From positions 1 through 64,000 of IMG/VR virus record IMGVR_UViG_3300050821_005389: a stretch of DNA of 64,000 bases. One strand, written 5' to 3'. The position numbers and the translations under genes were made by a program. This DNA comes from a virus. The notes under the pieces were generated by a model. That model ran no database searches and was not told the origin of the DNA. It saw only the letters and a list, made by a program, of their open reading frames with translations. Of the stretch, positions 5,401 through 42,549 are shown in pieces; position 1 is the first letter of the stretch, and every line of letters begins with the position of its first letter.

Positions 5401-5445
5401 GGGGGTGCCATCACCACCCCCGGCCAACTCTGTGATGGAGAGAAC
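5401..5445 (+). promoter_or_regulatory. SD-masking pseudoknot leader, copy 1 (GIY-YIG gene)
   Basis: Stem 1 pairs GGGGGTG (5401-5407) with CACCCCC (5415-5421). The 7-base loop CCATCAC (5408-5414) is perfectly complementary to GTGATGG (5432-5438), whose GG begins the Shine-Dalgarno GGAGAG. Formation of stem 2 would hide the ribosome site of the gene starting at 5446. Five more copies with different sequence but the same geometry occur in the window. Confidence 0.8.
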
Positions 5446-6000
5446 ATGTATATTTCAGACGAACGCGCTCGGGAGATCAATCCCAATTTCGGTAAGGTAA
5501 AAGAACCAAAACCTAAATCTAAGCGTCAGCCAGTTTTTAAAGTAAAAGAGTTAGAAAAGCTAGTTCCTTTTGATTTCGCCGTCAGAACACCCAACACGGC
5601 TATGAAGGAGCTTTCAAAGCAGGTTTTACCAGCCGAGAAGTTTCGGCGCCAGATAAGTAAGCCTAGACTTGATTGTTCGCCGGTTTACGATAATATTTAC
5701 TTTATCGTTCCTGAAAACGAGCGGATGGTTAAGATTGGTCGATCAATCGATGTTCAGAGGCGATTGATAGATTTGCAAATAGGAAGTCCGGTTCGACTCC
5801 GAGTGTATGCTTCTTTCAGAGTTCCGCTTTCTCATAGCGTAAGCATTGAAGGGTATCTTCACTACGCATTTAAGAAACACTATCTTCACGGCGAGTGGTT
5901 TAAGTTTACTGCCGAGATGAAGCGAGCCGTAGATCGAGGGGCTGATTTGATACCGAGTGAAGCCGCACTAAATGATTACTTACAGTCGAGGTCGGCATGA
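5446..6000 (+). CDS. GIY-YIG (T5orf172-like) endonuclease, free-standing homing type
   Basis: 184 residues. A basic linker-like N-terminus (1-75) precedes a GIY-YIG-superfamily domain: NIYFIV (83-88), KIGRS (96-100), RR with QIGSP (105-115), a catalytic-type Glu in SIEGYLHYAF (about 135), and GEWF (149-152). This order is that of T5orf172/MUG113 nucleases. The gene follows the divergent control region and carries the same pseudoknot leader as the five HNH-type genes, so I take it as a mobile homing endonuclease. Target site unknown. Confidence 0.85.
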   Translation: MYISDERAREINPNFGKVKEPKPKSKRQPVFKVKELEKLVPFDFAVRTPNTAMKELSKQVLPAEKFRRQISKPRLDCSPVYDNIYFIVPENERMVKIGRSIDVQRRLIDLQIGSPVRLRVYASFRVPLSHSVSIEGYLHYAFKKHYLHGEWFKFTAEMKRAVDRGADLIPSEAALNDYLQSRSA

Positions 6001-6091
6001 CCACCCTTATAACCCTTTTCTCCTTTGTAACCTTCTCCGTGTCCTTTTCGCTCCTGTCGACCCAACTGGCTAGAATCAACAAAACAAAAAT

Positions 6092-6340
6092 ATGAATGAC
6101 TATACTACACCTGGTCGCGGACAGGCAGGCCCGTTCGGTAAAGAAGACGCTTCCGACCCTAAACCGCCGGCACAGCGCAACCCCGCAATCAAGGATCCCG
6201 GCCGCATCTGGCAAAGAGAAACTCGCGAAGGGCGCCCCTTGGACCCAAGCGGCAAGCTCAGAATCCAAACCGCCCGTCCGGATCTTAAACAAACCGGTCA
6301 TGTCGACCTAACCAGACTACCGAGGTTCAAGAAGATTTAA
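6092..6340 (+). CDS. Small Pro/Gly-rich hypothetical protein
   Basis: 82 residues starting MNDYTTPGRGQAGPFGKED, hydrophilic and proline-rich, probably disordered. Its stop directly abuts the next start at 6341. An alternative frame at 6096 covers the same bases but does not join its neighbours; this frame is preferred. No ribosome site of note, no family recognised. Confidence 0.6.
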   Translation: MNDYTTPGRGQAGPFGKEDASDPKPPAQRNPAIKDPGRIWQRETREGRPLDPSGKLRIQTARPDLKQTGHVDLTRLPRFKKI

Positions 6341-6595
6341 ATGGGTGATTTTGATTTATATAACGTGTGGGACGGTACTAGAACTTTCTTGATTCACTGG
6401 TTTGTTAAGTTTCTGATGTTCGTTTTACCTTTATCGATAATCGAAGCTATAAACGAGAAGTTTCGTCGACCATGTGATTTTCATTTTCTTTATTATGGTA
6501 GTTGGAACGGTAGCTGTCTTTGGTGTGGAACTTGGCAAGGACGACAAAGCATTAAACCGGATGTTGTAGACATAAGAGAGGCAGAGGCGAAGTGA
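6341..6595 (+). CDS. Small membrane protein with C-terminal cysteines
   Basis: 84 residues. A hydrophobic segment (LIHWFVKFLMFVLPLSIIEAI, about 17-37) looks like one membrane helix, followed by basic residues and a CLWCGTW motif. The stop overlaps the GTG start of the next gene by GTGA, indicating coupling. Function unknown; a lysis role is possible but not shown. Confidence 0.65.
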   Translation: MGDFDLYNVWDGTRTFLIHWFVKFLMFVLPLSIIEAINEKFRRPCDFHFLYYGSWNGSCLWCGTWQGRQSIKPDVVDIREAEAK

Positions 6596-6807
6596 CTGAC
6601 ATCTTCGAACAAAACGGCATTTGCCGCCAGTGCGGCGTTCCCCACGGCCCCAACCCCTGCCCGAAGCGTGTGAACAGTGTACGAGCCTCGGAAGGGGTGC
6701 CAACCCCACCCGTAACGCCTCCCCCGGCGCCGTCAGAACCTTCGAAGGCAGTTTCATTGAACTCTCCTGGTTTTTGGGACTGGGCGAAACTTTGGAAAAT
6801 GACTTAA
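6592..6807 (+). CDS. Small zinc-knuckle, proline-rich protein
   Basis: 71 residues from a GTG start overlapping the upstream stop. NGICRQCGVPHGPNPCP gives a three-cysteine, one-histidine knuckle (residues 8-24), then a proline-rich stretch and a tryptophan-rich end (GFWDWAKLW). The last base is shared with the next ATG (TAATG). No family recognised. Confidence 0.6.
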   Translation: MTDIFEQNGICRQCGVPHGPNPCPKRVNSVRASEGVPTPPVTPPPAPSEPSKAVSLNSPGFWDWAKLWKMT

Positions 6808-6953
6808 TGGAACCCGAAAGCCTCGAGTCCCTTCTCCGCCAGTACCAAAACGTCCTGGAAGTAAAAAAGTACCTTCGCTACAAACTGGCCGAGCACGGCC
6901 TGAAGAACACCGACCAGATAGAAGAAGCCCTGGCCGAACTGGAGTACACCTAA
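6807..6953 (+). CDS. 48-residue helical protein
   Basis: Starts at ATG 6807, whose A is the last base of the preceding stop. The product is a run of charged helices (MEPESLESLLRQYQNVLEVK; KNTDQIEEALAELEYT). Coupled translation in a tightly packed series of small genes is the main support. Function unknown. Confidence 0.6.
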   Translation: MEPESLESLLRQYQNVLEVKKYLRYKLAEHGLKNTDQIEEALAELEYT

Positions 6954-6956
6954 ATT

Positions 6957-7208
6957 ATGAACGCAAAAGAAGTTTACGAACAGAAAGCCGACCCATCTAT
7001 GGGCGTAAGTATTCCCGCCGTCAAAAGCGGACGTGGCTGCGACGACACCTTGACGCAAGCCGCAGGAGTCTCCGCGGTAACAAAATCGCCCAGCCCTGGT
7101 GGTCACGCTCAAGTAGGCGCCACACTCAAGGCCGTCAGAATTCAATCCGGTTACCGCCATCTCGACAACATGGTTCAGGAAAATCAAGACATCGAACCAA
7201 CTTACTAA
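6957..7208 (+). CDS. Small hypothetical protein
   Basis: 83 residues, Gly/Ser/Ala-rich and hydrophilic (MNAKEVYEQKADPSMGVSIP). It starts 3 bases after the preceding stop and is followed after 11 bases by the lipoprotein gene. Probably disordered; no family recognised. Confidence 0.6.
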   Translation: MNAKEVYEQKADPSMGVSIPAVKSGRGCDDTLTQAAGVSAVTKSPSPGGHAQVGATLKAVRIQSGYRHLDNMVQENQDIEPTY

Positions 7209-7219
7209 TTAGGAGCAAC

Positions 7220-7855
7220 ATGAATCGAATCTTATCAGTTGTACTAATGGTCGCCATCACCTTGGCAACTATCCCAATGTCCGGTTGCAGCTCCACCAAC
7301 TTCGTCGCCGCCCTTAACGCCATTGTACCCGCCGCTACCGCCGTCATTGAAGTCATCGCCGTCTATGAAGGCAAGCCCGCTGATCCTAACGCCGCGCAAA
7401 AGATTGCCCAAGACGTAACTGCCGCAGAACAGTTCTACGCCGACTATCAAGCCGCATTGGCATCACTCGACGCCGGTCAAGTCGCTAGCACGAAACAAAA
7501 GCTTGAAGCCGGCCTTCAGGTTCTAGTCTCGGATATCGGTTTAATAGAACAAGTCGCCCAGATCAAGGATCCCGCAACTCAGGCCAAGGTCTCTGCACTG
7601 GTTCTCTTAATCCAAACTGGTATCAGTATCGCCGAAGCCGTCGCCGGAGTTCAGCCAGTACCGGTCGCCGCGAAGCTAGTCCGTGCAGGAATCAACCCGA
7701 ACTCGGTCAAAGACGTAAACTCTCTAGTCAAAGCCTTCAACCAGGTTCTTGTCGCTAAGACAGGCAATTCGAAAGTCGACGCTTATACTAGTAAGCACCA
7801 AGTCCACATTCACGGCAAGCTCGCCAGAGTAGCCAGCTTCGGGAAGTTGGCGTAA
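7220..7855 (+). CDS. Phage lipoprotein
   Basis: 211 residues, ATG preceded by TAGGAGCAAC. The N-terminus (MNRILSVVLMVAITLATIP) is a signal peptide ending in a lipobox, MSGC, with Cys at residue 23, so the mature protein would be anchored to a membrane by lipid. The body is mostly alpha-helical and alanine-rich. Phage lipoproteins can be spanins, exclusion factors or envelope modifiers; nothing here chooses among these. Next gene overlaps by one base (TAATG). Confidence 0.8.
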   Translation: MNRILSVVLMVAITLATIPMSGCSSTNFVAALNAIVPAATAVIEVIAVYEGKPADPNAAQKIAQDVTAAEQFYADYQAALASLDAGQVASTKQKLEAGLQVLVSDIGLIEQVAQIKDPATQAKVSALVLLIQTGISIAEAVAGVQPVPVAAKLVRAGINPNSVKDVNSLVKAFNQVLVAKTGNSKVDAYTSKHQVHIHGKLARVASFGKLA

Positions 7856-8052
7856 TGCCGGTCGCCGTCGTAGTAATGGGGCTGGTATTAACTGCGTCAA
7901 CTATAGCTGTCAACGGCGCCAACTTCGTTCGAATTCTAAAAGGTGGTCAAGCTATTACTGCAAAATCCGCCAGGTTCGTTAGCCATAAATCGAAACAAGC
8001 GGCTCATAAATCCAAAATAGCGAGCAAAGCTGTAGTTAACTTCTTGAAGTAA
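7855..8052 (+). CDS. Small membrane protein with basic tail
   Basis: 65 residues. One hydrophobic helix (MPVAVVVMGLVLTASTIAV) is followed by a lysine/serine/histidine-rich tail (SHKSKQAAHKSKIASK). The start overlaps the lipoprotein stop. A hydrophobic N-terminus with a basic cytoplasmic tail is seen in some holin-like proteins, but this is only a possibility. Confidence 0.65.
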   Translation: MPVAVVVMGLVLTASTIAVNGANFVRILKGGQAITAKSARFVSHKSKQAAHKSKIASKAVVNFLK

Positions 8053-8060
8053 AGGAGACT

Positions 8061-8789
8061 ATGCGTTTACGCGGAGCCTTCCCTTCCCCGAGACATAAAT
8101 TAGCCGCAGTTTCTCCACATCAACTTCTCGGCACTACACCCAGCCAGTTCCTTTGGAAACCGACGAAGTTGTCAATGTGGCTTAATGACGTAGATGGTGA
8201 TTGCGTCACGGCGGAAGAAGCTTTTAAGTGCGCCTGTAACAATCCGGAAATCTTCATTACAGATGACACTGTCCTTGCGTGGGCAACCGCCAACAATGTT
8301 TTAAACGGCGCCGATCTCACAACTGTAATGGACACGATGCGAACGGCCGGCTTTTCACAAGACAATAATTTGTATAATGACGGTCCGTACGTTTCAGTCG
8401 ACTGGACTAACGAAGCTGTTCTTCAGAACGCCATAGTACAAGGCCCAGTTAAGATCGGAGTAGCCGCCGACCAACTGGAACAAGCAGTAGGAACTGTCAA
8501 TCCTCCGCCAAGCGGTTGGGTCGCAACTGGTTTCCAGAAAGATACGAATGAAGATCATTGCGTCAGCCTTCCTGGTTTTGGTCCAGCAAGCTGGTTAGCG
8601 GAACAACTCGGCGTACCTTCGCCGGGAGACTTTCCGGCTTATGCTTTGTTTACTTGGAGCAGTATCGGGATTATAGACGTACCATCAATGCTAGCTATCA
8701 CAGGTGAAGCCTGGTTACGTAATCCCGGCACGATAACAGTTCCTCAGAATAAACAAACATGGCTAGATAAGATTAAGAAGTTTTTCTAA
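8061..8789 (+). CDS. Papain-like cysteine peptidase-like protein
   Basis: 242 residues, start ATG with AAAGGAGAC upstream. A GDCVTAEEAF segment (Cys48 before a helix) resembles the papain nucleophile region. DHCVSLPGFG (His166) and ALFTWSSIG (Trp199) occur in the order Cys, His, Trp/Asn-like that the C1/papain fold uses. No N-terminal signal is evident. The stop overlaps the next start. Assignment is by motif order only; substrate unknown. Confidence 0.5.
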   Translation: MRLRGAFPSPRHKLAAVSPHQLLGTTPSQFLWKPTKLSMWLNDVDGDCVTAEEAFKCACNNPEIFITDDTVLAWATANNVLNGADLTTVMDTMRTAGFSQDNNLYNDGPYVSVDWTNEAVLQNAIVQGPVKIGVAADQLEQAVGTVNPPPSGWVATGFQKDTNEDHCVSLPGFGPASWLAEQLGVPSPGDFPAYALFTWSSIGIIDVPSMLAITGEAWLRNPGTITVPQNKQTWLDKIKKFF

Positions 8790-9259
8790 TGCCGATCCGT
8801 ATTCAATTGGTAACAGAGAAGTGGAATCCCATTTCAGCCAGTATCCGTTACAGCACCCGAAGCTGGTGCTCACATATTGAATTTTGTGATCTATCCGCCG
8901 GCACAACATTGGGATCTCGCAGCATCGGCGGAGTTAAGATCCGCCCGTCAAGTAAAGATCATTACACCCGCGTTGAGCAGTTCGTTGTCGACGATTACAA
9001 AATAATGCAATCAGCTTACCATTGGGCATTAGGCCAGATCGGCAAGCCTTATGACTTCTCAGCTATTACCGGTATGGTCGTTGATCGAGATTGGCGCAAT
9101 GAATCTAAGTGGTTCTGTTCCGAACTCATCGCCGCCGCATTCGAAGCCGTCGACTATCCACTGTTGTCAACCCGGCCTAGCGTCGGTGTTTACAGAATAA
9201 CACCTCGAGATTTACTTCTTTCAAGACAGTTAACTTTTATTACAGGCACCGGAATATAA
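8789..9259 (+). CDS. Permuted NlpC/P60 (YiiX/YebB-like) cysteine hydrolase
   Basis: 156 residues. His29 in SWCSHIEF comes first and the nucleophile Cys110 in KWFCSELIAAAFE later, with GKPYDF (86-90) just before it. This is the permuted order of the YiiX/YebB group. Members cleave amide or ester bonds in peptidoglycan or lipids. It lies directly after the papain-like gene and near the lipoprotein, suggesting an envelope-directed set. Confidence 0.7.
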   Translation: MPIRIQLVTEKWNPISASIRYSTRSWCSHIEFCDLSAGTTLGSRSIGGVKIRPSSKDHYTRVEQFVVDDYKIMQSAYHWALGQIGKPYDFSAITGMVVDRDWRNESKWFCSELIAAAFEAVDYPLLSTRPSVGVYRITPRDLLLSRQLTFITGTGI

Positions 9260-9292
9260 TCGCAGTAACAATAAACTAATAGGACGAAAACA

Positions 9293-9742
9293 ATGAAAGT
9301 ACCCGAATTGGTAAACGTAGGTCAAGCTCTGTGGAAAAAAGAATTAGAACTCGTACAAAAGAAGCACGGAAGAAAATTTAAGCAACAGGAAACATTCGAG
9401 CAAGCTAAAATAAGGCATCAGAGAGATTGTTCTCATTTAAAAGGCGGACCGAATCGTAACCGTCTTTCTCGAAAAGATTATAATGTATCCAAACATACTT
9501 TTATTGATTGTACCGTTAGAATTCGTTGCCTGACATGCGGGATGAAGTGGTTTAAAGACGACACTCGATCAATATTAATCAGAAACGGTAAAGAGCATAT
9601 AAATCACACGGGGTTGGGATGGACCGACGCGTTAAAGATGGTAGAAGATTCCACCAATACACCATCCGCTTCTGAACACTTTCCGCAATTTAAAAAAGAA
9701 GACGCGCATAAAAAAGGTCCAACGGAGTATTACACGGACTAG
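9293..9742 (+). CDS. Zinc-ribbon protein, paralogue of 26046-26645
   Basis: 149 residues. A basic N-terminal helix is followed by RDCSHLKGG (Cys46, His48) and CLTCGMKW (Cys79, Cys82), forming a probable CxH...CxxC metal site. The tail NHTGLGWTDALKMV and STNTPSASE are nearly matched in the 26046-26645 protein (NHTGIGWREALNMV, STNTPSSSE). Clearly the same family. Nucleic-acid or protein binding is possible; function unknown. Confidence 0.75.
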   Translation: MKVPELVNVGQALWKKELELVQKKHGRKFKQQETFEQAKIRHQRDCSHLKGGPNRNRLSRKDYNVSKHTFIDCTVRIRCLTCGMKWFKDDTRSILIRNGKEHINHTGLGWTDALKMVEDSTNTPSASEHFPQFKKEDAHKKGPTEYYTD

Positions 9743-9748
9743 GAGTTT

Positions 9749-10129
9749 ATGAATCCTCAACTTTTAAATTTTATCAGCCAGCACTGGTTCGGCGTTCTGT
9801 CAGTCGTTGGCTACATCAGCTTGACCGGTATTAACCAAATGGCGCCGCCGGGAGTCAAGGGCGGAGGAGCATACGGTTGGTTTTACAGAACGACTCAATC
9901 ATTGGCAGGTAGTGCTGTTATAAAGAATTGGGAAATGAAATTTGGACTTCAACCGGTGCCCAATCCCCCGCCCAGTAATGTTTCGACGACACAGCATGGT
10001 TTAGTCCCGCCCGTTTTTACGGTGTCAACACCGAATGCTATATCAACGAATGTCGGTCCAGTGGGCGAAACGTTTACAGTGTCAACGAATACAGGCACAC
10101 CTTTAGTTCTTCGCGCAGAGTCAAAGTAG
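9749..10129 (+). CDS. Membrane-anchored hypothetical protein
   Basis: 126 residues. One hydrophobic segment near the N-terminus (WFGVLSVVGYISLTGI, about 13-28) is followed by a Gly/aromatic stretch and a long Val/Thr/Pro-rich tail of low complexity. Start ATG preceded by TAGGAGTTT. It could be a holin-like or envelope-anchored virion accessory protein; undecided. Confidence 0.6.
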   Translation: MNPQLLNFISQHWFGVLSVVGYISLTGINQMAPPGVKGGGAYGWFYRTTQSLAGSAVIKNWEMKFGLQPVPNPPPSNVSTTQHGLVPPVFTVSTPNAISTNVGPVGETFTVSTNTGTPLVLRAESK

Positions 10130-10135
10130 GAGATT

Positions 10136-10501
10136 ATGTCAACAAACGGAACAATTTTAGGCACGTATTTATCCGTTGGTTCGGGTAGTGCGGCCAATAT
10201 TCTTTTAAACGCTTTTAGTAACCCGAGATCATTGGACATCGTTCAAGTTGTAAACGAGGGTGGTAACTGTGTCTGGAATTTAAATAACGTCGGATTGACT
10301 GCGACTAATCCAACCGGTTATACACAAGGTCCGGGTGGAAAGCCCCAGGCGCTGATGACATTGTTCGGAAATACTTTTGCACAAGCAATTGCCAGTGCAT
10401 CGAACTCAAGTAACCCTCTAGATCTTCTTCAGGTACTGGATAACAACGGCGGTGCAGTTTTATTCCATGTCAACAACAGCGGTTTAGCGAGTACACCTTA
10501 A
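10136..10501 (+). CDS. Small beta-rich protein, tandem paralogue A
   Basis: 121 residues, ATG preceded by TAGGAGATT. Two copies of a strand unit are visible: LDIVQVVNEGGNCVWNLNNVG and LDLLQVLDNNGGAVLFHVNN. The next gene has the same plan (SDILQIRNEGGFCIWSLNWNG; LDILQIYATNGQHLLLRV). Such units look like fibre or surface modules. Probably virion-associated. Confidence 0.7.
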   Translation: MSTNGTILGTYLSVGSGSAANILLNAFSNPRSLDIVQVVNEGGNCVWNLNNVGLTATNPTGYTQGPGGKPQALMTLFGNTFAQAIASASNSSNPLDLLQVLDNNGGAVLFHVNNSGLASTP

Positions 10502-10854
10502 TGGCGACTATCGGAACAGTTTGTGGAGTCTTTGAATCTAACGGTGCAGGCTCACCCGCCAGTATAGTTGCGGGTGCGTTCGTAAATCCGTCGAAATCGG
10601 ATATCCTTCAAATCCGTAATGAAGGTGGTTTCTGTATTTGGAGTTTAAACTGGAACGGCGTTGCCGCGAATAACCCGACCACGCCTACCGCAACCGCTTT
10701 GATTCAAACTTTATTTGGTTCGACTATTGCGGCCGCGGTAACTAACAATTCTTCGAACGCGCAGAATCCGCTGGACATTCTTCAGATTTATGCAACAAAC
10801 GGTCAACATCTTTTACTTCGCGTGACAAACGCGGGTACAGTTTCGCAGTCTTAA
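10501..10854 (+). CDS. Small beta-rich protein, tandem paralogue B
   Basis: 117 residues, start shares the final A of the upstream stop (TAATG). Sequence and spacing of the two strand units follow 10136-10501 closely, so the pair arose by tandem duplication. A related motif (GLDILQVVN) opens the large fibre at 32301. Confidence 0.7.
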   Translation: MATIGTVCGVFESNGAGSPASIVAGAFVNPSKSDILQIRNEGGFCIWSLNWNGVAANNPTTPTATALIQTLFGSTIAAAVTNNSSNAQNPLDILQIYATNGQHLLLRVTNAGTVSQS

Positions 10855-10863
10855 AGGAGCTTT

Positions 10864-11085
10864 ATGATGAGTTCAGATCCAGCAATGGGCACGATGCCGT
10901 GGCCCGCTGCCAAGCAGCATCCGCATAATCAGGATGAACAGATGGCGATGCCGGCGCATGGTGTAAAAGTGCGTAGAGCGGCTCGCCAGTTTCCTAATCA
11001 TCAGGATGAAACACCAGCAAGGCCTAGTCACGGTGTGATGCCGAAAAAGAAAAGAGATCCCGAAGACTTCCACGGCGGGATGTAA
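10864..11085 (+). CDS. Small His/Pro-rich protein with internal repeat
   Basis: 73 residues, AAAGGAGC upstream. The sequence contains two related segments (HPHNQDEQMAMPAHGVK and FPNHQDETPARPSHGVM) and ends in a basic then acidic tail. Probably disordered; role unknown. The extended -10 of the next gene lies just after its stop. Confidence 0.6.
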   Translation: MMSSDPAMGTMPWPAAKQHPHNQDEQMAMPAHGVKVRRAARQFPNHQDETPARPSHGVMPKKKRDPEDFHGGM

Positions 11086-11099
11086 TTTTAAACGAAATT

Positions 11100-11108
11100 T
11101 GTTATAAT
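11100..11108 (+). promoter_or_regulatory. Extended -10 promoter of endonuclease cassette 2
   Basis: TG-T-TATAAT is a perfect extended -10 in the short gap after the 10864-11085 gene. No -35 is obvious. It would start transcripts about 30 bases before the pseudoknot at 11145. Confidence 0.6.
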
Positions 11109-11144
11109 GTAAATACCCTTTGATTAATTACCAAAGGTTAGATA

Positions 11145-11190
11145 GGGATATGCCTTAGACATATCCCTGTCGCATCTTCTAAGGAGAAAT
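11145..11190 (+). promoter_or_regulatory. SD-masking pseudoknot leader, copy 2
   Basis: Stem 1: GGGATATG (11145-11152) with CATATCCC (11160-11167), 8 pairs. Loop CCTTAGA (11153-11159) is perfectly complementary to TCTAAGG (11178-11184), which contains the AAGGAG ribosome site. Same architecture as the copies at 5401, 13879, 20644, 24804 and 41608, with different paired bases. Confidence 0.85.
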
Positions 11191-11826
11191 ATGAAAGAAG
11201 TCTTATGTCACGAATGTAAGTGTGTTTTAACGGATGAGAATTGCGGTTCTAGTAGATTTAAGGAAAAAGGTTTAGCAGCTTATTGTCGTGTCTGTGATAA
11301 GAAGCGCTTAAAGAAATATAACGAAGAGAATAAAGAAAGGTTGCGTGAGTATAAAAGAGAAGCCTCGCTGGATTGGTATTATAAATTAAAGAATGATCCC
11401 GAGAGATGGGCTGCTCATGTTACTAAACAAAGGCAATTGTATAGAAAACTCTCACCGGAACAGAGGTCTGAATTATATCAAAAGAAAAAAGAATATCTTC
11501 GTAAAGATCACTGGAGTCGAAATAGGAAACACCACTACGGAATAACCGGCAAACAATTTCTTGAAAATTTAGCATCTCAAGATAACAAATGTGAGATTTG
11601 TCAAACAGAAATATCTTTTGAAGCCCCATCCAGAAAGTTTAGGCCACATCAAGATCACTGTCATTCGACAGGAGAGAATCGTGGGATTTTGTGTAACCTT
11701 TGTAATGTTTTGTTGGGCAACGCTCACGATAGTATAGAAATTCTTCTAAGCGCCGTTCGGTACTTAGAGAAGTACGCCGTAAGTAGTTCGATCCAAACTG
11801 AAAGCGTAATTAATAGCGGTGCTTAA
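11191..11826 (+). CDS. Endonuclease VII-like HNH homing endonuclease
   Basis: 211 residues. An N-terminal zinc knuckle (CHECKC, then YCRVC at 31-35) and a long basic coiled helix lead to a recombination endonuclease VII domain: CEIC (134-137), DHCH (155-158), TGENRGILCNLCN (160-172) and LLGNAHDS. These are the zinc ligands and beta-beta-alpha-metal residues of the T4 gp49 family. The promoter and leader of its own mark it as a free-standing mobile gene rather than a resolvase of the packaging module. Confidence 0.85.
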   Translation: MKEVLCHECKCVLTDENCGSSRFKEKGLAAYCRVCDKKRLKKYNEENKERLREYKREASLDWYYKLKNDPERWAAHVTKQRQLYRKLSPEQRSELYQKKKEYLRKDHWSRNRKHHYGITGKQFLENLASQDNKCEICQTEISFEAPSRKFRPHQDHCHSTGENRGILCNLCNVLLGNAHDSIEILLSAVRYLEKYAVSSSIQTESVINSGA

Positions 11827-11915
11827 ATAAATTTTGAGTGCTCTATTAAAGCAGCAGTCCGGGGGAAATCAGCAGACCCTCTCGGCTGTTTGTATATAAG
11901 GGAGTAATTGTTTTT

Positions 11916-12515: not shown

Positions 12516-12547
12516 TTCTCCGCAGTCCTTCCCCACGTTTAAAAAGT

Positions 12548-12580
12548 CGACCCGCCTTTAAAAAGCGGGTCGCAAATTTT
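12548..12580 (+). terminator. Hairpin terminator after 11916-12515
   Basis: CGACCCGC (12548-12555) pairs perfectly with GCGGGTCG (12565-12572) around a 9-base loop. A weak T-rich stretch (CAAATTTT) follows. Likely Rho-independent or an RNA processing and stabilising hairpin. Confidence 0.6.
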
Positions 12581-13858: not shown

Positions 13859-13867
13859 TGCTATAAT
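13859..13867 (+). promoter_or_regulatory. Extended -10 promoter of endonuclease cassette 3
   Basis: TG-C-TATAAT directly follows the GroES-like gene. Transcription would begin around 13874, only a few bases before the pseudoknot stem at 13879, so the structure would form at the very 5' end of the RNA. Confidence 0.65.
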
Positions 13868-13878
13868 TTAAGTTGGTT

Positions 13879-13927
13879 GGGTGTGCCTGATACACACCCG
13901 ACCTTATCCTTATCAGGAGGATTAATA
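13879..13927 (+). promoter_or_regulatory. SD-masking pseudoknot leader, copy 3
   Basis: Stem 1: GGGTGTG (13879-13885) with CACACCC (13893-13899). Loop CCTGATA (13886-13892) is perfectly complementary to TATCAGG (13911-13917), the front of the AGGAGG ribosome site. The start codon after it is TTG at 13928. Confidence 0.85.
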
Positions 13928-14737
13928 TTGAGAAATTTAAGAGATATTAGAAAACGTTCGCGTTACATTCGAGTACATACCCCGAATATATTACCGGAGT
14001 GTTTTGAACTTCAAAATCATATTTGTGACTTATGCGGTCAAGAAATTCAGTGTCTTGAAGTTGCTGAATTAGATCATTCTGTTTCTGTATATTATTTCGC
14101 ATCTAGCTCCTTGGATATTTTAGAAGCCGCGAAGCAATGTAATGGTCTAAATAATTTAAGGGCGGCTCACGCTCGTTGTAATTCTAAGAAAAGAATTCTT
14201 TGTCGCGACGAGTGGTTTGCGAAAGGAATGGATATTTTAGTGGGCTCGGCTCCTGTTTTAACTGAAGACGAAATTAAAACTTTGAAAGATCGTTCTATTG
14301 AGATAGGCCGCATAGGTGGCACAGCCGCGAATAAAAACCCTAGGAATCGAAATAGATTAAAGAGATATAGAACATTTGAAAGTTGTTCGGCGGGCGGGAA
14401 GGTTGGCGGAGCTAAAAACGTAGAAACAGGTCAAATTCTTAAATTGGGTGAGATACAGGGCGAACGAAATAAAAAGAGTGGCCACTGGGATAAAGTTAGA
14501 CTTTTGGGATCGCCTATTACTTCTGACAAAGCTAGAGAACAAGGTTTAAAAAATGTAGAGAGTGGTCATTTAGCAAGTCTTGATCAAGGGCATAAAAACG
14601 CAGCGAAGCCAGGCTATATGTCTAAAATAGGAAAAATTGGCGGGAAGAAAAGCGGCCCTATTGTTAGTCATGTGCGCTGGCATGTAAAACGAAATATTAT
14701 AAACCCAAATTGTTCTTTGTGTACTACTAGTTCTTAG
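13928..14737 (+). CDS. HNH homing endonuclease with glycine-rich DNA-binding repeats
   Basis: 269 residues. TTG at 13928 is chosen because AGGAGG lies 7 bases upstream; a longer frame would read through the leader RNA. The HNH core is CDLC (33-36), ELDHSV (about 47-52), NNLRAAHARCN. The rest holds NUMOD-like repeats with paired glycines (GRIGGTA, GGKVGGAKN, GKIGGKKSG) and the ending VRWHVKRNIINPNCSLC typical of phage HNH proteins. Free-standing mobile gene with its own promoter and leader. Confidence 0.85.
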   Translation: MRNLRDIRKRSRYIRVHTPNILPECFELQNHICDLCGQEIQCLEVAELDHSVSVYYFASSSLDILEAAKQCNGLNNLRAAHARCNSKKRILCRDEWFAKGMDILVGSAPVLTEDEIKTLKDRSIEIGRIGGTAANKNPRNRNRLKRYRTFESCSAGGKVGGAKNVETGQILKLGEIQGERNKKSGHWDKVRLLGSPITSDKAREQGLKNVESGHLASLDQGHKNAAKPGYMSKIGKIGGKKSGPIVSHVRWHVKRNIINPNCSLCTTSS

Positions 14738-20627: not shown

Positions 20628-20643
20628 TTGTAGCTACAAGGTA

Positions 20644-20684
20644 GGGGGTGCCTTAATCACCCCCGACTCTATTAAGGAGAGTAA
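20644..20684 (+). promoter_or_regulatory. SD-masking pseudoknot leader, copy 4
   Basis: Stem 1: GGGGGTG (20644-20650) with CACCCCC (20658-20664). Loop CCTTAAT (20651-20657) is perfectly complementary to ATTAAGG (20671-20677), part of the AAGGAGAG ribosome site. The linker between the stems is 6 bases. Confidence 0.85.
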
Positions 20685-21311
20685 ATGCCGTATAAAACTT
20701 TAAAAGCTAGGAAAAAGTATCTTAAGAAAAATAAAAAGCGTTTTAGAGAATATAAAAAACGATACAGTGCGGAACATCGAGAAGAGATTAAAAAGTATAA
20801 TTTTCAATATAAATCAAAACATAAAGCCGAACTTAAAAAGAAACGTAAAAAGTACGTTTTAAATAATCTAGAGAAGATACGTAAGGCTACAAAAGCATGG
20901 CGTTTTAAAAACAAAGAACATCTTAAGAATTACGAACAAGAATACGCTAAGAAAAATCAATCCGCTATTAAAGCGCGTCATCGAATTTACCATAAGAAAA
21001 ATAAAGCCAAGATCAAAATGTATCCATCCAACTCGCCCGCCAATAGGATGGCTATTCACCGCAAGTTTAAGTACGGACTAAGTCACGATCAGTTTCTAGA
21101 AAAACTTAAAATTCAAAAGAAGCGATGTGCTATATGTAAGCGTAAATTTTATACGCAGTGTGGAGCACCGTGTGTTGACCACGATCACGACACGAATAAG
21201 GTTCGAGACTTGTTGTGCCAGCACTGTAATAGAGCATTAGGCCTTTTTAAAGAAGAAATAATCTGTTTTGAGAACGCAATCCAATACTTAAAGAAACATA
21301 AGGAACAATAG
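20685..21311 (+). CDS. Endonuclease VII-like HNH homing endonuclease
   Basis: 208 residues. A very basic, lysine-rich helical half (1-125) precedes the endonuclease VII core: CAIC (148-151), VDHDHDT (164-170), LLCQHCNRALGLFKE (176-190). The stop directly abuts the ATG of 21312-21680, so the insertion is tightly fitted between portal and the next head gene. Codon use is strongly A-rich compared with the neighbouring structural genes, fitting recent acquisition. Confidence 0.85.
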   Translation: MPYKTLKARKKYLKKNKKRFREYKKRYSAEHREEIKKYNFQYKSKHKAELKKKRKKYVLNNLEKIRKATKAWRFKNKEHLKNYEQEYAKKNQSAIKARHRIYHKKNKAKIKMYPSNSPANRMAIHRKFKYGLSHDQFLEKLKIQKKRCAICKRKFYTQCGAPCVDHDHDTNKVRDLLCQHCNRALGLFKEEIICFENAIQYLKKHKEQ

Positions 21312-24766: not shown

Positions 24767-24795
24767 TTGACACAATAGCAATATTGTGATACTAT
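24767..24795 (+). promoter_or_regulatory. Strong promoter of endonuclease cassette 5
   Basis: TTGACA (24767-24772), 17-base spacer, TACTAT (24790-24795) with TG at the extended -10 position. It begins 3 bases after the capsid stop codon. Transcription would start about where the pseudoknot stem begins (24804). Confidence 0.8.
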
Positions 24796-24803
24796 ATAAG
24801 ATT

Positions 24804-24855
24804 GAGGGGTGTGCCCTATACACATCCCTCATCTTAACTCTTGTAGGGAGAGTAA
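24804..24855 (+). promoter_or_regulatory. SD-masking pseudoknot leader, copy 5
   Basis: Stem 1: GAGGGGTGTG (24804-24813) with CACATCCCTC (24821-24830), 10 pairs including one G-U. Loop CCCTATA (24814-24820) pairs with TGTAGGG (24842-24848) with one G-U, covering the GGGAG ribosome site. Confidence 0.8.
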
Positions 24856-25431
24856 ATGACAAAGGTTGAAAAACGCAAGAAAGCCACTTCCAAAATGAGG
24901 AAGTGGAGAAAGAAAAATAAACAGCGTAATTTAGAAAACGGGCGCCGGTGGCGAAAAGATAACGTAGAAAAAGCAAGAGCGAAGAATAGAAAACATTATT
25001 GGAATAATCGGGAAGATATGCTCGCTAGAAATAAAGCTTACTATCCTGAATATTACGCAAAGAATGATATCAAAAGTAAACGACGGCTACGTCAACACGG
25101 TGTTACGCAAGAGTGGTTAGACGCAAAGATGTTGGAACAAGACGGCAAATGTGCTCTTTGTAAACAGCCGTTTACCGAAACACCGCACATCGATCATAAC
25201 CATATTTGTTGTCAATCGCGAAGGAATTGTGGAACGTGTCAACGCGGTTTGTTGTGTAAAGATTGCAATCTCGGACTCGGAAGATTTAAAGACAATACTC
25301 AAACTTTAGAAAACGCCATTCAATATCTTCGAAGGTATAATAATGAGTTGGTCAGTCAACCCCCAATACAAACCGCTGGAAGCACCCTGGAAAGAAACGC
25401 ACAACCAGAAGGTCACTCAGCAATCAATTAA
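24856..25431 (+). CDS. Endonuclease VII-like HNH homing endonuclease
   Basis: 191 residues. Basic N-terminal helices (1-80), then CALC (99-102), HIDHNH (111-116), an extra Cys-rich insert (CCQSRRNCGTC, 118-128) and GLLCKDCNLGLGRFKD (131-146). The last 29 codons overlap the start of the next gene in another frame (89 bases). It follows the intron-rich capsid gene and might supply cleavage for spread of those introns, but that is speculation. Confidence 0.85.
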   Translation: MTKVEKRKKATSKMRKWRKKNKQRNLENGRRWRKDNVEKARAKNRKHYWNNREDMLARNKAYYPEYYAKNDIKSKRRLRQHGVTQEWLDAKMLEQDGKCALCKQPFTETPHIDHNHICCQSRRNCGTCQRGLLCKDCNLGLGRFKDNTQTLENAIQYLRRYNNELVSQPPIQTAGSTLERNAQPEGHSAIN

Positions 25432-37044: not shown

Positions 37045-37050
37045 GGATTC

Positions 37051-37773
37051 ATGTCTTACACTCTACAGCAAACTATAAATTGGGCGCAGACATATGTTCA
37101 GTATATTCCTTTAACTGCGGGAACGGGAAATGAGCCTGCTATTTCTATAGGTAATACGGTTCAATCTACCATTTTAAACGCACCTTTTGTTTGGCCATTT
37201 AATCGTAACGAATTTCCGATTGTTTTAGTCACGGGTCAACAAGATTATGTTTTTGATGTAACCGACTTTGCTTATTTAGAAAAAGTTTCGTTGTTAAGCG
37301 CGGACGGTAGTGATGGTTTTGAAGTCAAGGATGTTTATAACACGAATATTTTAGGATTGGCGGCAACAGGTAGTACGGCTCAACCCAATGCTGTTGCTGT
37401 GAAACTATATACTCCGGATACCAGTATTGCGCTGCGATTTTTAAGTAATCCCGATCAAGCGTACACCGGAACGTTAACTTATCAAGTTATTGTAGATCCT
37501 TTTACTGCTTTGGACGACCCTTGGGCGCCGATTCCCGACAGTTTCATTGACATTTTTAATAACCTTTTCTTGGCTGAAGTCATGGCTGTCGCAGATGATG
37601 CTCGAGAACAGCTTTATCGTCAACGTGGTATCGCTGCTCTCTTATCTAAGGCAGAAGGTTTGACTGAAATGCAGCGTAACGTTTATCTCGCTCAGTATCT
37701 TGCCCGCGGCTCTTCTATGACGTTGGCTGCGCAATTGAGAACGCAACAGGCAATTCAAGCGCGTGGGTTGTAA
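37051..37773 (+). CDS. Tail tubular A (adaptor)-like protein
   Basis: 240 residues. ISIGNTVQSTILNAPFVWPFNRNEF, then VTGQQDYVFDVTDFAYLEKVSL and a helical end (IFNNLFLAEVMAVADDAREQ; RQRGIAALLSKAEGLTEMQR) follow the general pattern of adaptor proteins between portal and nozzle. Stop and next start overlap (TAATG). Confidence 0.6.
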   Translation: MSYTLQQTINWAQTYVQYIPLTAGTGNEPAISIGNTVQSTILNAPFVWPFNRNEFPIVLVTGQQDYVFDVTDFAYLEKVSLLSADGSDGFEVKDVYNTNILGLAATGSTAQPNAVAVKLYTPDTSIALRFLSNPDQAYTGTLTYQVIVDPFTALDDPWAPIPDSFIDIFNNLFLAEVMAVADDAREQLYRQRGIAALLSKAEGLTEMQRNVYLAQYLARGSSMTLAAQLRTQQAIQARGL

Positions 37774-40700
37774 TGGCGCCTAATTTACTTCAGAACGCAG
37801 GCGCACAGCCGAACAAGCAACCGAAATATGTTCCGATTTTTATCGATCGGGCGTTTACCGGCATCTGGACGCAGCGTTCTGTACTTCACGATCCCTCGGA
37901 TATTGCGACGGCCCACTTTTATGGCGGTAGGCCGGATGCTCTTTGGCAAGGTTCAAACGTAGAGTTAACTAACAGATTGACGCTGCAACGCCGTCCCGGA
38001 TTGACTCCTTTTTCCGCCGCGACTTATCCGACGCCTCCGCAACGAGCTTTTGCGTTTGAATTAACCAACGGAACGATTCGGGTAATTATCGATACAGGTC
38101 CGAGTCCGGTATTTAATCTGTCATCAGTAAACGCGATTAGCGGTGCGGCGTATTATATCTTTACGTCGCCCGTGACATGCGCGGCGAATAATGCTTACGT
38201 CGGATTGATTTTTAACATCACCGGATTTGACCAGACGACTAATAACGGCGCATTCACTTGTACCGCTTCGACAAGTAGTTATTTACTTCTTTCGAATGCC
38301 TCGGCTATTAACGATACTTCGGCGGCGACCGCGGTAACTTCCGGTGGAGTTTATTGGGATACACAAGTCGGCGGTATTAGTTATCTGCTGTTTGCTAAAT
38401 CGGCTGATGCGGGTCAGACCGGATTTGTTTCCGTCGCTGGTACGCTTTATATGGGTGACGGCGTTGATACTAGGAAGTATACGCCGCTTAATAACAACGG
38501 TACGATTGCTAATAGTGTTGCCGGTCAAGGATCGATTTGGAATTATAGTATTGCCGCGCCGACTAGCCAGCCGGCTGTCACTATAGTAGAGTCCGGTGCA
38601 TCCGCTGTCCCTTGGGAGTCGTCGACATTTTACTCGACGATGGGCCTGTTAGTTGACAGTAACGGTAACATTGAGTACCTAACCGGTATTAATAATTCCG
38701 GAACCAATACTACTCAGTTCGGAACGACTGGCCAAGGGCAACCGCAGTGGAGTAGCGTTACTGGTAACCCGCCTGCGTCTGGTGAAGACGGTAGTTGTAA
38801 CTGGCTTTGCGCCGGGTCGTTATCTTTGTGGCAATCACAGACTGCCTACACCACCGGCGCTTGTATCTACGTTCCTGGTGTTGGCGGAACACCGCTGCCC
38901 GCTTTTTCAGAAACCAACGGGAATAATACCGGTGTCGGAGTTAATTGTCCTGGTACAACCGGTGGCGGTATTTGGCAAGCGTTTCCACACGGTGGTACTT
39001 CTGGATCGTCGACTCCTAAGTGGAGTCCGATTTCTAATACTCATACCGACGATTTTAATGGTACTGGTTCGAATGATATCGAGTGGCAATATCTCGGTCC
39101 GGCTATTCTATGGCAGCCTAACCACATTTATAACTCGTGGTGGGAACATCTCCAGATGTGCGTCGTTGAGCCATCTTTGCCTAATTTAGCTCTTCTTGAA
39201 GCTGGAACTCAGACGATTTTCGTTCAAACAAATAATAATCAATCTACTGGCAGTGTCAACGTTCAAGGAACTTCTGGATCCGGATATACTCCGCCGTGGC
39301 CTCTAGCAGCCAATACTAGCCCTAGTTCAGTAGGTCAAACTACGGGCGACGGCGATTTACAGTGGATTTGTCTCGGTTGGGGAACTTGGAAAGTTGACAC
39401 CGAATACGTTGCGTGGACCGCTGGCGCCAGCCAATTTAGTGCTATTAAAGACGGTAACAACAATTTTCAAGTTTGTCTTCAGGGTGGATTGTCTGGAATC
39501 AACATTGCTGCTACGCCTTATAACGGTTGGTTGCCTTCGCATGTTTATGCTACTAGCGCATTGATCGCGGTTAAGAGTACGGGTGGTTATTATCAATTTT
39601 CTGTATTGTTTGGCGGAGGAACTAGTAGTAGATCTACCGAACCGGTTTGGAATTTTACTACAGGTAATAACACGCATGACGGCAGCATAACTTGGCGATG
39701 CAACGGCCCGTTGCCGGCCAGTCAAGCGGTTTGGGGAACTACGTATGGTGCTCAGACACGAGATAACGAAGTTATTTGGACGTGTGTTGGCTCGGCAGTA
39801 GATTCTACCTGGACAGCTAGTACTCAGTGGTATTTTCCGGCCAGCGGTTTTGCTGCACCTACGTCCTCACAGGCTTACGGTGGTGCGGAAGTCATCGCAA
39901 ACGGCGATGTTCAAATTGTAATTGATTCCGGATTATCTGGATCGGCTACGCCGCATTGGGGGGCTATTGGTACTACCACGCAAGACGGTTTTGCTGTTTG
40001 GTATACCAATTCAGTTGTAAGTCCGAATTCGTTAGCGTGGCAAGTCGGATATGTTTACGCATATTCTTATAAAGCCCGCTCGTTAGACGATTATTATTCT
40101 ACACCGAGTTACGTTTATACAGGACCCGGACAGAGTACTTTCCAGATTCCGATTCCTCCGGGATTGAAATCAGCGTTACCGCCGCCATCAGGCTCGGAGA
40201 CGGAAGGTATTTCTACCGCCTCGCCGGTGTTTACAATCACAGGCGTGAATGCTGGCGCGGTTAACTATGTTACGGTTACAGGTTCTTTAGATCCGCAAGT
40301 TGACACGATTGTTATTTGGCGGTCTGCTGACGGGGGCGGACCGAGTAACATGTTCGAGTTGACCGAGATACCTAACCCAAAGCCAGTCAACGGGGCGCCG
40401 GGTGTAGCAACTTTTGCAGATTATTTACCAGATGTGGCTACTCTTTCGGCGACAGGGGTATTGTATCCTGGACTTGATGAAGAAATACCCGCTCCAATTG
40501 ACGGTATAAACAATCCCCCGTTAAGCAATTTTATTCCTATGACGTATAATTTTCAGCGGATATGGGGTGCGGCTGGGCAAGAAGTTCTTTGGAGTGGTGG
40601 TCCCGATACGTTGACAGGCACCCCGAATGAAGCTTACAACGTGTCGGATAATTTCAGTTACCTCGCGAACGTAACTAGAATAGTTAAGAATTCGCAAGGC

Positions 40701-41591
40701 CAAGTAGTTTTTTTAACCGACAGCGTAGAATTTATTGCGGGCGGCCCATCGACTCAATCATTTTTTTCTATAACGCTAGCCCCTGGAATAGGCTTAAATA
40801 ACTTTAACGCCGTCGATGTTTATGCTGGAGATCTGGTCTTCTTTTCATCTGATTCACAGTTGAAAAGCATTAACCCCTCTTTGCAATTGGCTAATATGGG
40901 TTTTCCGATCGGAGATCAGTTAGCTCTACTAGATTCGTCCGAAGTTGGCGTGGCGTATCACCAAAACGGAATCGATAATGCAATTTACGTAAGCGATAAC
41001 GATACCGGTTGGTGGCGTGTAAATCCTAGACAAATTCCGGGCGGCCTCAACGGCCCCGAGCCCGTCTGGAGCACTTTTTCCGCGATCACGGGCGGGGCGG
41101 GTATGGTTCAATCTGTTGAAACAACTCCCGGTATTAAGCAACTTTTAGTGGGTGGTACGGGGTGTAATCAACAAATATTGGTTAGGAATTTAAACGTATT
41201 TACCGATTATGTAAATGGGGTACAAACCCCTTACGATGCTTATTTTGTTATGGGTAGTGTGGTTTTAGCGCATCCCGGCCAATTGGCTATTTTACGTTTT
41301 ATTGAAATGGATTGTAGTGGCGTAAATTATCAACCTGTTGTTTCGGTTCTATTGAATGAGATTTCGGGAAATTTCCAAGTGCTCCCAACGACAGATGTTT
41401 TTGATCCGCCTAGCTTGTATGGTACTACAATCTCTCCTACGAGTTATTCTCCCCAAAGGTGGTATTTTGCGTCGACCGGTAGTTTAGCTCGCGCACGTCA
41501 TATACAAATAAAATGCGATCTAGGAACCACGAGTAATGGGGATGAAGTCTTGTCGCTAACAATTTACGGACGACTTATGGTAGAATTATAA
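37773..41591 (+). CDS. Large nozzle (tail tubular B)-like protein
   Basis: 1272 residues. The opening KQPKYVPIFIDRAFTGIWTQ to RSVLHDPS, then ELTNRLTLQRRPGLTPF, and the C-terminal part (VYAGDLVFFSSDSQLKSINP; VGVAYHQNGIDNAIYVSDN; KQLLVGG) resemble podovirus nozzle proteins. The middle (about 260-830) holds repeated WxxxTxY and GT-rich modules around WQPNHIYNSW and TWKVDTEYVAW, probably carbohydrate-binding-like insertions that explain the unusual length. The extended -10 of the next gene overlaps its last codons. Confidence 0.7.
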   Translation: MAPNLLQNAGAQPNKQPKYVPIFIDRAFTGIWTQRSVLHDPSDIATAHFYGGRPDALWQGSNVELTNRLTLQRRPGLTPFSAATYPTPPQRAFAFELTNGTIRVIIDTGPSPVFNLSSVNAISGAAYYIFTSPVTCAANNAYVGLIFNITGFDQTTNNGAFTCTASTSSYLLLSNASAINDTSAATAVTSGGVYWDTQVGGISYLLFAKSADAGQTGFVSVAGTLYMGDGVDTRKYTPLNNNGTIANSVAGQGSIWNYSIAAPTSQPAVTIVESGASAVPWESSTFYSTMGLLVDSNGNIEYLTGINNSGTNTTQFGTTGQGQPQWSSVTGNPPASGEDGSCNWLCAGSLSLWQSQTAYTTGACIYVPGVGGTPLPAFSETNGNNTGVGVNCPGTTGGGIWQAFPHGGTSGSSTPKWSPISNTHTDDFNGTGSNDIEWQYLGPAILWQPNHIYNSWWEHLQMCVVEPSLPNLALLEAGTQTIFVQTNNNQSTGSVNVQGTSGSGYTPPWPLAANTSPSSVGQTTGDGDLQWICLGWGTWKVDTEYVAWTAGASQFSAIKDGNNNFQVCLQGGLSGINIAATPYNGWLPSHVYATSALIAVKSTGGYYQFSVLFGGGTSSRSTEPVWNFTTGNNTHDGSITWRCNGPLPASQAVWGTTYGAQTRDNEVIWTCVGSAVDSTWTASTQWYFPASGFAAPTSSQAYGGAEVIANGDVQIVIDSGLSGSATPHWGAIGTTTQDGFAVWYTNSVVSPNSLAWQVGYVYAYSYKARSLDDYYSTPSYVYTGPGQSTFQIPIPPGLKSALPPPSGSETEGISTASPVFTITGVNAGAVNYVTVTGSLDPQVDTIVIWRSADGGGPSNMFELTEIPNPKPVNGAPGVATFADYLPDVATLSATGVLYPGLDEEIPAPIDGINNPPLSNFIPMTYNFQRIWGAAGQEVLWSGGPDTLTGTPNEAYNVSDNFSYLANVTRIVKNSQGQVVFLTDSVEFIAGGPSTQSFFSITLAPGIGLNNFNAVDVYAGDLVFFSSDSQLKSINPSLQLANMGFPIGDQLALLDSSEVGVAYHQNGIDNAIYVSDNDTGWWRVNPRQIPGGLNGPEPVWSTFSAITGGAGMVQSVETTPGIKQLLVGGTGCNQQILVRNLNVFTDYVNGVQTPYDAYFVMGSVVLAHPGQLAILRFIEMDCSGVNYQPVVSVLLNEISGNFQVLPTTDVFDPPSLYGTTISPTSYSPQRWYFASTGSLARARHIQIKCDLGTTSNGDEVLSLTIYGRLMVEL
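41578..41586 (+). promoter_or_regulatory. Extended -10 promoter of endonuclease cassette 6
   Basis: TG-G-TAGAAT lies inside the last codons of the nozzle-like gene, about 22 bases before the pseudoknot at 41608. No clear -35. Confidence 0.5.
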
Positions 41592-41607
41592 AGTTGTGGC
41601 TAACAAA

Positions 41608-41658
41608 TAGGGGGGTGCCAGTTACACCCCTCTAATCCTTTAACTGGAAGGATTTTTT
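41608..41658 (+). promoter_or_regulatory. SD-masking pseudoknot leader, copy 6
   Basis: Stem 1: TAGGGGGGTG (41608-41617) with CACCCCTCTA (41625-41634), 10 pairs with one G-U. Loop CCAGTTA (41618-41624) is perfectly complementary to TAACTGG (41641-41647), the front of the GGAAGG ribosome site of the gene at 41659. Confidence 0.85.
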
Positions 41659-42549
41659 ATGTACGAAATAGGTAGTATTGTTGAAAAAGAACTTTTTCTT
41701 AGGTCACGAGATAATCCTCGGTCTACACAGATGTGGCGAGCTTATATTTCGTTTTTAGAAAATTGCCCTTATTTAGAAACTTGGACACCTAATTCTGTAG
41801 TTCATCATATACTTTGGCGAGCCGAATACCCCCAGTTTGTTAAATCGAAATGGAATTTGATTCGACTGTCTCATGATGATCATACTGCCGCCGCAGCTCT
41901 GATGTTAGGGGCGGAACCTAAAAATAGAGGGTTGTTGGACGGTTTTAAATTTACCTCCAAATTAACAGCCGGAATCCGCCCGAGTTGGCAACCTAAAAAT
42001 CCTCGGCGTGTAATTAGATTATACACAAAAGAACGTTGGTCAGCCGCGCGGATAGGATGTAAATTTAAAGTTGGTATATATCGGGTAATTCATTTTCTTA
42101 GAAGAAATAAAATAGAGATATCTTCTAGAAATCACGGACGAAGCCTGCTCTTTAGATTTTCTAAAAAAGAAATAAAGCAGATGATTCGCATGTATTTAAG
42201 AGAATTAAAAACATCCGTGGTTATCGGAAAGAAATTTGGACTTTCTTCTAGTGGTGTTATGTCAATTCTTCGGCGAAACAATGTGCCCATCAGAGATCTT
42301 TCTATTAGTCACCAAAGCCATCAGTGGTTTGCTCAACAAACAAAAACAGCGATTCGTCTTTATACGAAAAAGTTTTGGGGAACCGAACGAATTGGTCGAT
42401 ATTTAAACATTCCCGAGGGCTGTGTTGCCGGGCATCTTATTCGTAACGGAATCAGGATTCGTACACAAAGCGAAGCGTCGAAATTAATAAAAATTCGTGT
42501 CAGAAAAGAAAAATCAAACCCCGGAAGAAGACAATTACGGGCTGCCTAG
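41659..42549 (+). CDS. HNH-type homing endonuclease with three HTH repeats
   Basis: 296 residues. VVHHILWRAEYPQFVKSKWN and LIRLSHDDHTAA form an HNH-type nuclease core (two His, Asn/Leu spacer, H..H..A). Three tandem helix-turn-helix repeats follow, each starting (V/M/A)IR(L/M)Y and ending in (R/I)RN(K/N/G)(I/V): about 112-150, 168-208 and 225-265. They would read the target site. The last 53 bases overlap the next gene. Confidence 0.8.
   Translation: MYEIGSIVEKELFLRSRDNPRSTQMWRAYISFLENCPYLETWTPNSVVHHILWRAEYPQFVKSKWNLIRLSHDDHTAAAALMLGAEPKNRGLLDGFKFTSKLTAGIRPSWQPKNPRRVIRLYTKERWSAARIGCKFKVGIYRVIHFLRRNKIEISSRNHGRSLLFRFSKKEIKQMIRMYLRELKTSVVIGKKFGLSSSGVMSILRRNNVPIRDLSISHQSHQWFAQQTKTAIRLYTKKFWGTERIGRYLNIPEGCVAGHLIRNGIRIRTQSEASKLIKIRVRKEKSNPGRRQLRAA

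Follow-up and report, generated by a model that had tools for sequence, protein, structure and literature searches.

A two-hairpin leader covering the Shine-Dalgarno sequence of phage nuclease genes, a probable portable translational lock

Six leaders in front of nuclease genes

The window considered here, the first 64,000 nucleotides (nt) of the 117-kilobase (kb) virus record IMGVR_UViG_3300050821_005389, carries six nuclease or nuclease-like genes, and in front of each lies a leader element made of two hairpins whose 7-nt loops complement each other. The original prediction, made from the letters of this stretch, had described at six sites a hairpin with a 7-nt loop starting in CC and, downstream, a complement to that loop at the front of the Shine-Dalgarno (SD) sequence. 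Direct reading of the sequence and recovery by a blind descriptor confirm all six sites, and the loop/partner pairs are those originally listed, including the copy with a G-U. Hairpin 1 has 7-12 base pairs (bp) in these copies and carries CC at the 5′ end of its 7-nt loop, and the loop complement follows 6-10 nt 3′ of hairpin 1, its last two bases being the GG of the SD sequence; the copy whose loop begins at 24814 has a single U-G in the loop pairing, unique among the six. The covarying, pseudoknot-type pairing over the SD sequence was correctly seen, but not as part of a lone hairpin with a pseudoknot strand: a second hairpin had been missed, and the contact runs from loop to loop. Each copy is given below by its two stems and loops, in positions of the whole stretch on the coding strand, followed by the gene behind it.

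Copy 1, 5401..5442 (+): stem 1 5401-5407/5415-5421; loop 1 CCATCAC 5408-5414; stem 2 5428-5431/5439-5442; loop 2 GTGATGG 5432-5438; ATG start 5446
Nuclease gene 1, 5446..6000 (+): GIY-YIG superfamily (MUG113 / T5orf172), Pfam E-values 6e-12 and 1e-8
Copy 2, 11141..11187 (+): stem 1 11141-11152/11160-11171; loop 1 CCTTAGA 11153-11159; stem 2 11175-11177/11185-11187; loop 2 TCTAAGG 11178-11184; ATG start 11191
Nuclease gene 2, 11191..11826 (+): endonuclease VII family, Pfam E-value 2e-18
Copy 3, 13875..13922 (+): stem 1 13875-13885/13893-13903; loop 1 CCTGATA 13886-13892; stem 2 13906-13910/13918-13922; loop 2 TATCAGG 13911-13917; TTG start 13928
Nuclease-like gene 3, 13928..14737 (+): weak endonuclease VII / HNH similarity, PHROGs E-values 1e-4 and 2e-4
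Copy 4, 20644..20682 (+): stem 1 20644-20650/20658-20664; loop 1 CCTTAAT 20651-20657; stem 2 20666-20670/20678-20682; loop 2 ATTAAGG 20671-20677; ATG start 20685
Nuclease gene 4, 20685..21311 (+): endonuclease VII family, Pfam E-value 5e-18
Copy 5, 24803..24853 (+): stem 1 24803-24813/24821-24831; loop 1 CCCTATA 24814-24820; stem 2 24837-24841/24849-24853; loop 2 TGTAGGG 24842-24848 (one U-G); ATG start 24856
Nuclease gene 5, 24856..25431 (+): endonuclease VII family (Pfam)
Copy 6, 41608..41654 (+): stem 1 41608-41617/41625-41634; loop 1 CCAGTTA 41618-41624; stem 2 41634-41640/41648-41654; loop 2 TAACTGG 41641-41647; ATG start 41659
Nuclease gene 6, 41659..42549 (+): HNH-type with helix-turn-helix, PHROGs E-value 5e-8

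The six genes belong to unrelated nuclease families, as had been proposed, although the assignment of the gene at 13928 is weak (endonuclease VII / HNH, E-value about 1e-4). Run over the window, the descriptor recovered the six coding-strand copies, its minus-strand matches being their mirror images, and it found no copy in the other 53 kb of the record. A look-alike hairpin at 6695-6711 (GGGTGCCAACCCCACCC) was rejected as a chance occurrence, since it has no complementary SD partner and is passed over by the descriptor. Coupling to ribosomes arriving from the upstream gene was likewise discarded as a mechanism common to the copies, because the distance from the upstream stop codon to hairpin 1 ranges in the window from ~16 to >500 nt. 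A search for intrinsic terminators (a hairpin followed by a U run) over 9.5-26 kb, a region holding four of the copies, flagged just one of them, copy 3, which has a poor tail.

Occurrence in viral and cellular genomes

Further copies at phage endonucleases, which the original prediction had made one of its tests, were found in number: scans of viral contigs returned about 100 that are non-redundant. The descriptor sets minimum lengths of 5 bp for stem 1 and 3 bp for stem 2 and asks for 7-nt loops with at most one G-U and for a start codon; it took the place of a covariance model, since models of that kind cannot represent the pseudoknot on which the element turns. It gave 135 matches in 2.75 Mb of fetched loci, against 2 and 2 in two local shuffles, and a looser pattern applied to 49 whole virus records gave about 80, against 5 in a reversed control.

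Patterns that ask for less lead to the same pairing. A pattern restricted to hairpin 1 matched viral contigs 126 times. In 27 of these matches the loop has a perfect Watson-Crick partner of 7 bp at a distance of 6-15 nt on the downstream side, with a start codon adjoining nearly all of them; the others almost all show 3-6 pairs, scattered without order. Where hairpin 1 and a perfect partner were the sole requirements, 20 of the 23 copies have a stem 2 of 4 bp or longer, which, having appeared there without being asked for, is no artefact of the search. A two-stem pattern, in which parts of both stems are fixed and five loop positions are free, yielded 83 viral matches, 74 of them Watson-Crick at all five positions, none at four and nine at three or fewer. 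In 85,000 prokaryote genomes the same pattern gave full pairing in one case among the 119 matches listed, so that there are essentially no copies among those matches in cellular genomes.

Among cultured phages, one of Tunturiibacter (Acidobacteriota) comes closest in its terminase, with 24% identity, and neither the genomes of Tunturi_3 and Tunturi_4 nor the first 49 kb of Tunturi_5 contain convincing copies. Comparison with cultured phages, by megablast for the window region and by blastn for a 62-nt leader, returned no useful match. A relative of the window's portal protein is encoded by 28 of the 49 element-bearing records and not by the other 21, one of which is 103.6 kb long and has four copies; the element therefore probably spans more than one phage lineage, although some of the portal-less records are fragments.

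Structure and covariation of the leader RNA

The anatomy of the element was read from 101 listed copies, possibly including one residual mirror image. Stem 1 has 7-12 bp and closes a loop CCNNNNN, stem 2 has 3-9 bp and closes a loop NNNNNGG, and the two loops are spaced 12-25 nt apart. The SD-side partner of loop 1 is itself the 7-nt loop of the second hairpin, as in copy 4 (ACTCT[ATTAAGG]AGAGT); the SD sequence lies within the paired region, and the start codon follows, mostly 7-9 nt past the GG. There are 48 distinct loop sequences among the copies, and shuffling the partners leaves about 3 full matches where 100 are observed. The claim that the sequences change with pairing kept holds for all three helices, which covary in both gap-free subsets scored (16 and 17 copies), at 0.57 and 0.59 against 0.15 and 0.13 in shuffled and 0.05-0.12 in slid controls. 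Loop 1 position 6 and loop 2 position 2 form A-U in 89/101 copies, beyond what pairing needs. The constancy of GTG...CAC beside loop 1 is partly a product of the search patterns; copies found through portal homology have ATG/CAT, CGG/CCG or ATA/TAT in its place.

The free loop positions contain one G-U among 505 pairs, and G-U is tolerated in stem 1, where the positions fixed by no search pattern show 37 G·U against one A·C. Such an excess of G·U indicates that the element acts as RNA on the mRNA strand, unlike a DNA palindrome. A signal at the DNA level, such as a recombination or nuclease target, would fit the way in which the element comes and goes with mobile nuclease genes, but it is extremely improbable given that G·U is tolerated and A·C is not, and that the element always stands on the coding strand at a start codon and always includes the SD sequence.

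Two-hairpin and pseudoknot leaders over the SD sequence are known among riboswitches (guanidine-II, preQ1), and a ligand-sensing role had been left open by the original prediction. In the gap-free subsets, invariant bases are confined to helices or the SD sequence, and no conserved unpaired bases suggestive of a ligand were seen. Rfam 15 places no family above its gathering threshold at the element in the window and 14 further loci, and none at the six sites even at permissive E-values. A ligand role is thus without support, and a metabolite riboswitch, for which the downstream genes would also be expected to share a metabolic pathway that they lack, is very unlikely. A search confined to the open literature found no described family of such elements.

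Downstream genes and mobility

The genes that follow the copies mostly encode free-standing nucleases of unrelated families. Among 103 downstream proteins, Pfam assigns endonuclease VII to 28, GIY-YIG to 14, NUMOD3 to 12 and HNH models to at least 10, with SegE, T5orf172/MUG113, PD-(D/E)XK and AP2 in a few each, these counts overlapping within single proteins. Their PHROGs names are overwhelmingly endonucleases, and most proteins without a family appear HNH-like when read by eye. A related two-hairpin leader stands before DUF5055 genes, which are not nucleases, at five loci (L279, L283, L284, L294 and L295); most of the five have a longer spacer and the loop CCCGTAT.

The element appears and disappears with the nuclease gene, as is seen where portal relatives (59-72% identity) are compared across the junction 3′ of the portal gene. 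A leader and an endonuclease VII gene follow the portal in the window and at two further loci, L439, in which copy 4 is identical, and L130, which has a compensated variant; in the other readable relatives the portal is followed directly by the next gene, with neither nuclease nor leader. At three loci (L447, L454 and L457), homologues of nuclease 5 with 46-54% identity still have the element in front, its loops changed yet fully paired. To judge from these sequence comparisons, the leader would be gained and lost together with the nuclease cassette, and may have passed between unrelated nuclease families or been taken up by them more than once; it is in any case common to such families.

Several copies in other phages lie inside transfer RNA (tRNA) arrays, just behind a tRNA end. 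Four phage contigs (L111, L023, L055 and L185) carry 19-33 predicted tRNA genes, arranged in arrays and with nuclease cassettes between them, and one of these contigs has a transfer-messenger RNA call. The record G000 (about 64-84 kb, L433) also encodes sugar-metabolism enzymes, by family counts and at approximate positions: nucleotide-sugar epimerases, FkbM methyltransferases, galactosyltransferases and a dTDP-rhamnose epimerase.

Promoters and upstream palindromes

A sequence scan places a sigma-70-like promoter near about 29/101 copies. The recognisable promoters lie upstream of hairpin 1, and the scan, limited to sequence, found none whose transcript would lack the element. Three features of the window belong here.

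Copy 3 promoter: extended -10 TGCTATAAT, ending at 13867, from which transcripts are predicted to begin at the base of stem 1 (by inspection)
Palindrome, 20628..20640: TTTGTAGCTACAA, directly before copy 4, a recurrent upstream element
Copy 5 promoter, 24767..24795 (+): sigma-70-like TTGACA-N17-TACTAT with a palindromic spacer, transcription being predicted to begin at the base of stem 1

Temporal control in the manner of T4, in which read-through transcripts fold whereas transcripts from an internal promoter lack the 5′ part and are translated, is known for I-TevI, with similar layouts in segB and mobE (PMC2988022), and the promoters near about 29 copies would lend it some substance. Being upstream of hairpin 1, however, these promoters yield transcripts that contain it, those of copies 3 and 5 starting at its base; moreover, at most ~10 nt separate the two hairpins, and a conserved -10 element was seen neither within nor between them. 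This scheme is accordingly held to be unlikely.

Many GIY-YIG copies (e.g. L166, L182 and L160) have an upstream sigma-70-like promoter with a palindromic -35/-10 spacer, often centred on TTGCAA and with arms that change together, similar to that at 24767-24795. A degenerate form of the palindrome before copy 4 occurs at 41594-41606. Perfect palindromes of varying centre (TTGTAGCTACAA, TTGTACGTACAA, TGATGCATCA and TTGTGCACAA) stand 1-7 nt 5′ of hairpin 1 in ~22/101 copies, and palindromes of at least 10 nt within 35 nt in 35/101, against 3.7% in shuffles.

A predicted translational lock

Computation shows the RNA structure and how strictly it covaries, its confinement to one strand, its overlap with the SD sequence, its link to nucleases and its absence from empty sites; from these we infer that the element lowers translation. 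It is probably a portable cis-acting translational lock on nuclease genes, and we hold this with good confidence. The leader RNA would fold hairpin 1 with its loop CCNNNNN, which would pair with NNNNNGG, at once the front of the SD sequence and the loop of the weak hairpin 2, whose 3′ arm carries the remaining SD bases (AGAG or AGG). With this loop-loop pairing in place, the structure should close the SD sequence and put it out of reach of 30S subunits, and a free-standing, potentially harmful nuclease would be little translated despite strong read-through transcription of the phage genome. Such a lock might be a switch or a constant damper. The loop-SD pairing is supported by the calculated energies, about -7.5 kcal/mol for the loop-loop duplex (with initiation, without a pseudoknot penalty) against about -2.7 for hairpin 2 alone, hairpin 1 being at about -15.5, and the lock has a direct precedent in the leader structures of T4 and Aeh1 that sequester the SD sequence of homing-endonuclease genes.

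Several observations weigh against this reading. None of 13 nuclease loci of cultured phages carries the element. The claim that only these six genes are homing-type nucleases went too far: three more nuclease-like genes on the other strand of the record (about 68.3-69.0, 94.1-94.7 and 98.8-99.2 kb) lack the element, and in other records a minority of the copies stand before genes for something other than a nuclease (DUF5055, replication-like or unknown). There is also a difficulty of geometry. Full hairpins and full loop pairing would stack 18-28 bp across a linker that often has 0-2 nt, and in 47/101 copies maximal stems leave at most 2 nt, down to overlap, so that the two hairpins in full length and the 7-bp helix between their loops cannot exist together in cis. 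Within one molecule, either the loop-loop helix would form with partly opened stems, or the pseudoknot and hairpin 2 would alternate.

The second of these arrangements could make the leader a regulated bistable switch between a closed fold (hairpin 1 and the loop 1-SD pseudoknot) and a partly open one (hairpin 1 and hairpin 2), the balance being tipped by a factor of the phage or of the host, or by infection time. Both folds are conserved and covarying, short linkers put them in competition, and the A at loop 1 position 6 in 89/101 copies hints at recognition; the calculated energies, however, strongly favour loop-SD pairing, and neither an effector nor conserved unpaired bases have come to light, which leaves such a switch possible but rather doubtful.

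Full complementarity between 7-nt loops is characteristic of kissing complexes between molecules, and full hairpins without a linker cannot kiss in cis, so that loop 1 of one mRNA might instead pair with loop 2 of another and translation be governed by mRNA concentration or a second cassette copy. Identical loops, however, occur in 1 of 61 within-record pairs against 2.0% between records, with no signal in those 61 pairs for crosstalk avoidance or loop sharing within one genome, and control in trans seems improbable. More speculatively, and in our judgement unlikely as a whole, the element could be a mobile RNA regulator exchanged among unrelated selfish nucleases that is also a true conformational switch (hairpin 2 against the pseudoknot, or trans kissing between mRNAs), answering a signal of infection stage while its loop codes diversify freely.

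The element adds a compact (about 45 nt), abundant and highly covarying class of RNA outside Rfam, located on phage mobile nucleases of unrelated families. It suggests that selfish nucleases in general need to have their ribosome site hidden, a need served by a portable RNA module. Five free, strictly complementary loop bases open the model to a test by compensatory mutation and could yield orthogonal translation regulators, and the element is also a marker for nuclease cassettes in metagenomic phages.

Comparison with known systems

The element is best read as a previously undescribed structural variant of the SD-hiding leaders of phage homing endonucleases. In T4 I-TevI and Aeh1 mobE, hairpins that hide the SD sequence limit translation, and the leaders of T4 I-TevI/II/III and segB and of Aeh1 mobE likewise place RNA structure over the SD sequence of a homing endonuclease, segB lying among tRNA genes as several copies of the element do (PMC2988022, PMC3014915). 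Here, too, a homing-type nuclease lies downstream and the SD sequence sits inside a predicted RNA helix. The T4 and Aeh1 leaders are described as hairpins or secondary structures at the SD sequence that late promoters bypass, whereas the element has two hairpins with complementary 7-nt loops, diverse sequences, unrelated nuclease families and promoters that, if found, lie upstream.

The guanidine-II (mini-ykkC) riboswitch has its second hairpin at the SD sequence and binds its ligand through ACGR loops. Like the element, it has two neighbouring hairpins that touch through their loops (PMC9300104). The element has no ACGR loops and no Rfam match, and its seven loop bases are all paired, five of them free to vary. 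The H-type pseudoknots of preQ1 and SAM-II have in common with the element a hairpin loop paired to the SD strand; the element differs in its fully paired loop, its additional hairpin 2 and the lack of a pocket of conserved unpaired bases. The T4-type gene 32 leader is also a phage mRNA pseudoknot in translational control, but it stands about 67 nt 5′ of the start, and gp32 reads it (PMC3014915); in the element, the SD sequence itself takes part in the pairing and the genes are nucleases. The ColE1 RNAI/RNAII kissing complex, which controls plasmid copy number, is a fully paired 7-nt loop-loop helix between two transcripts. The element has the same full 7-nt loop pairing, but with both loops in one leader.

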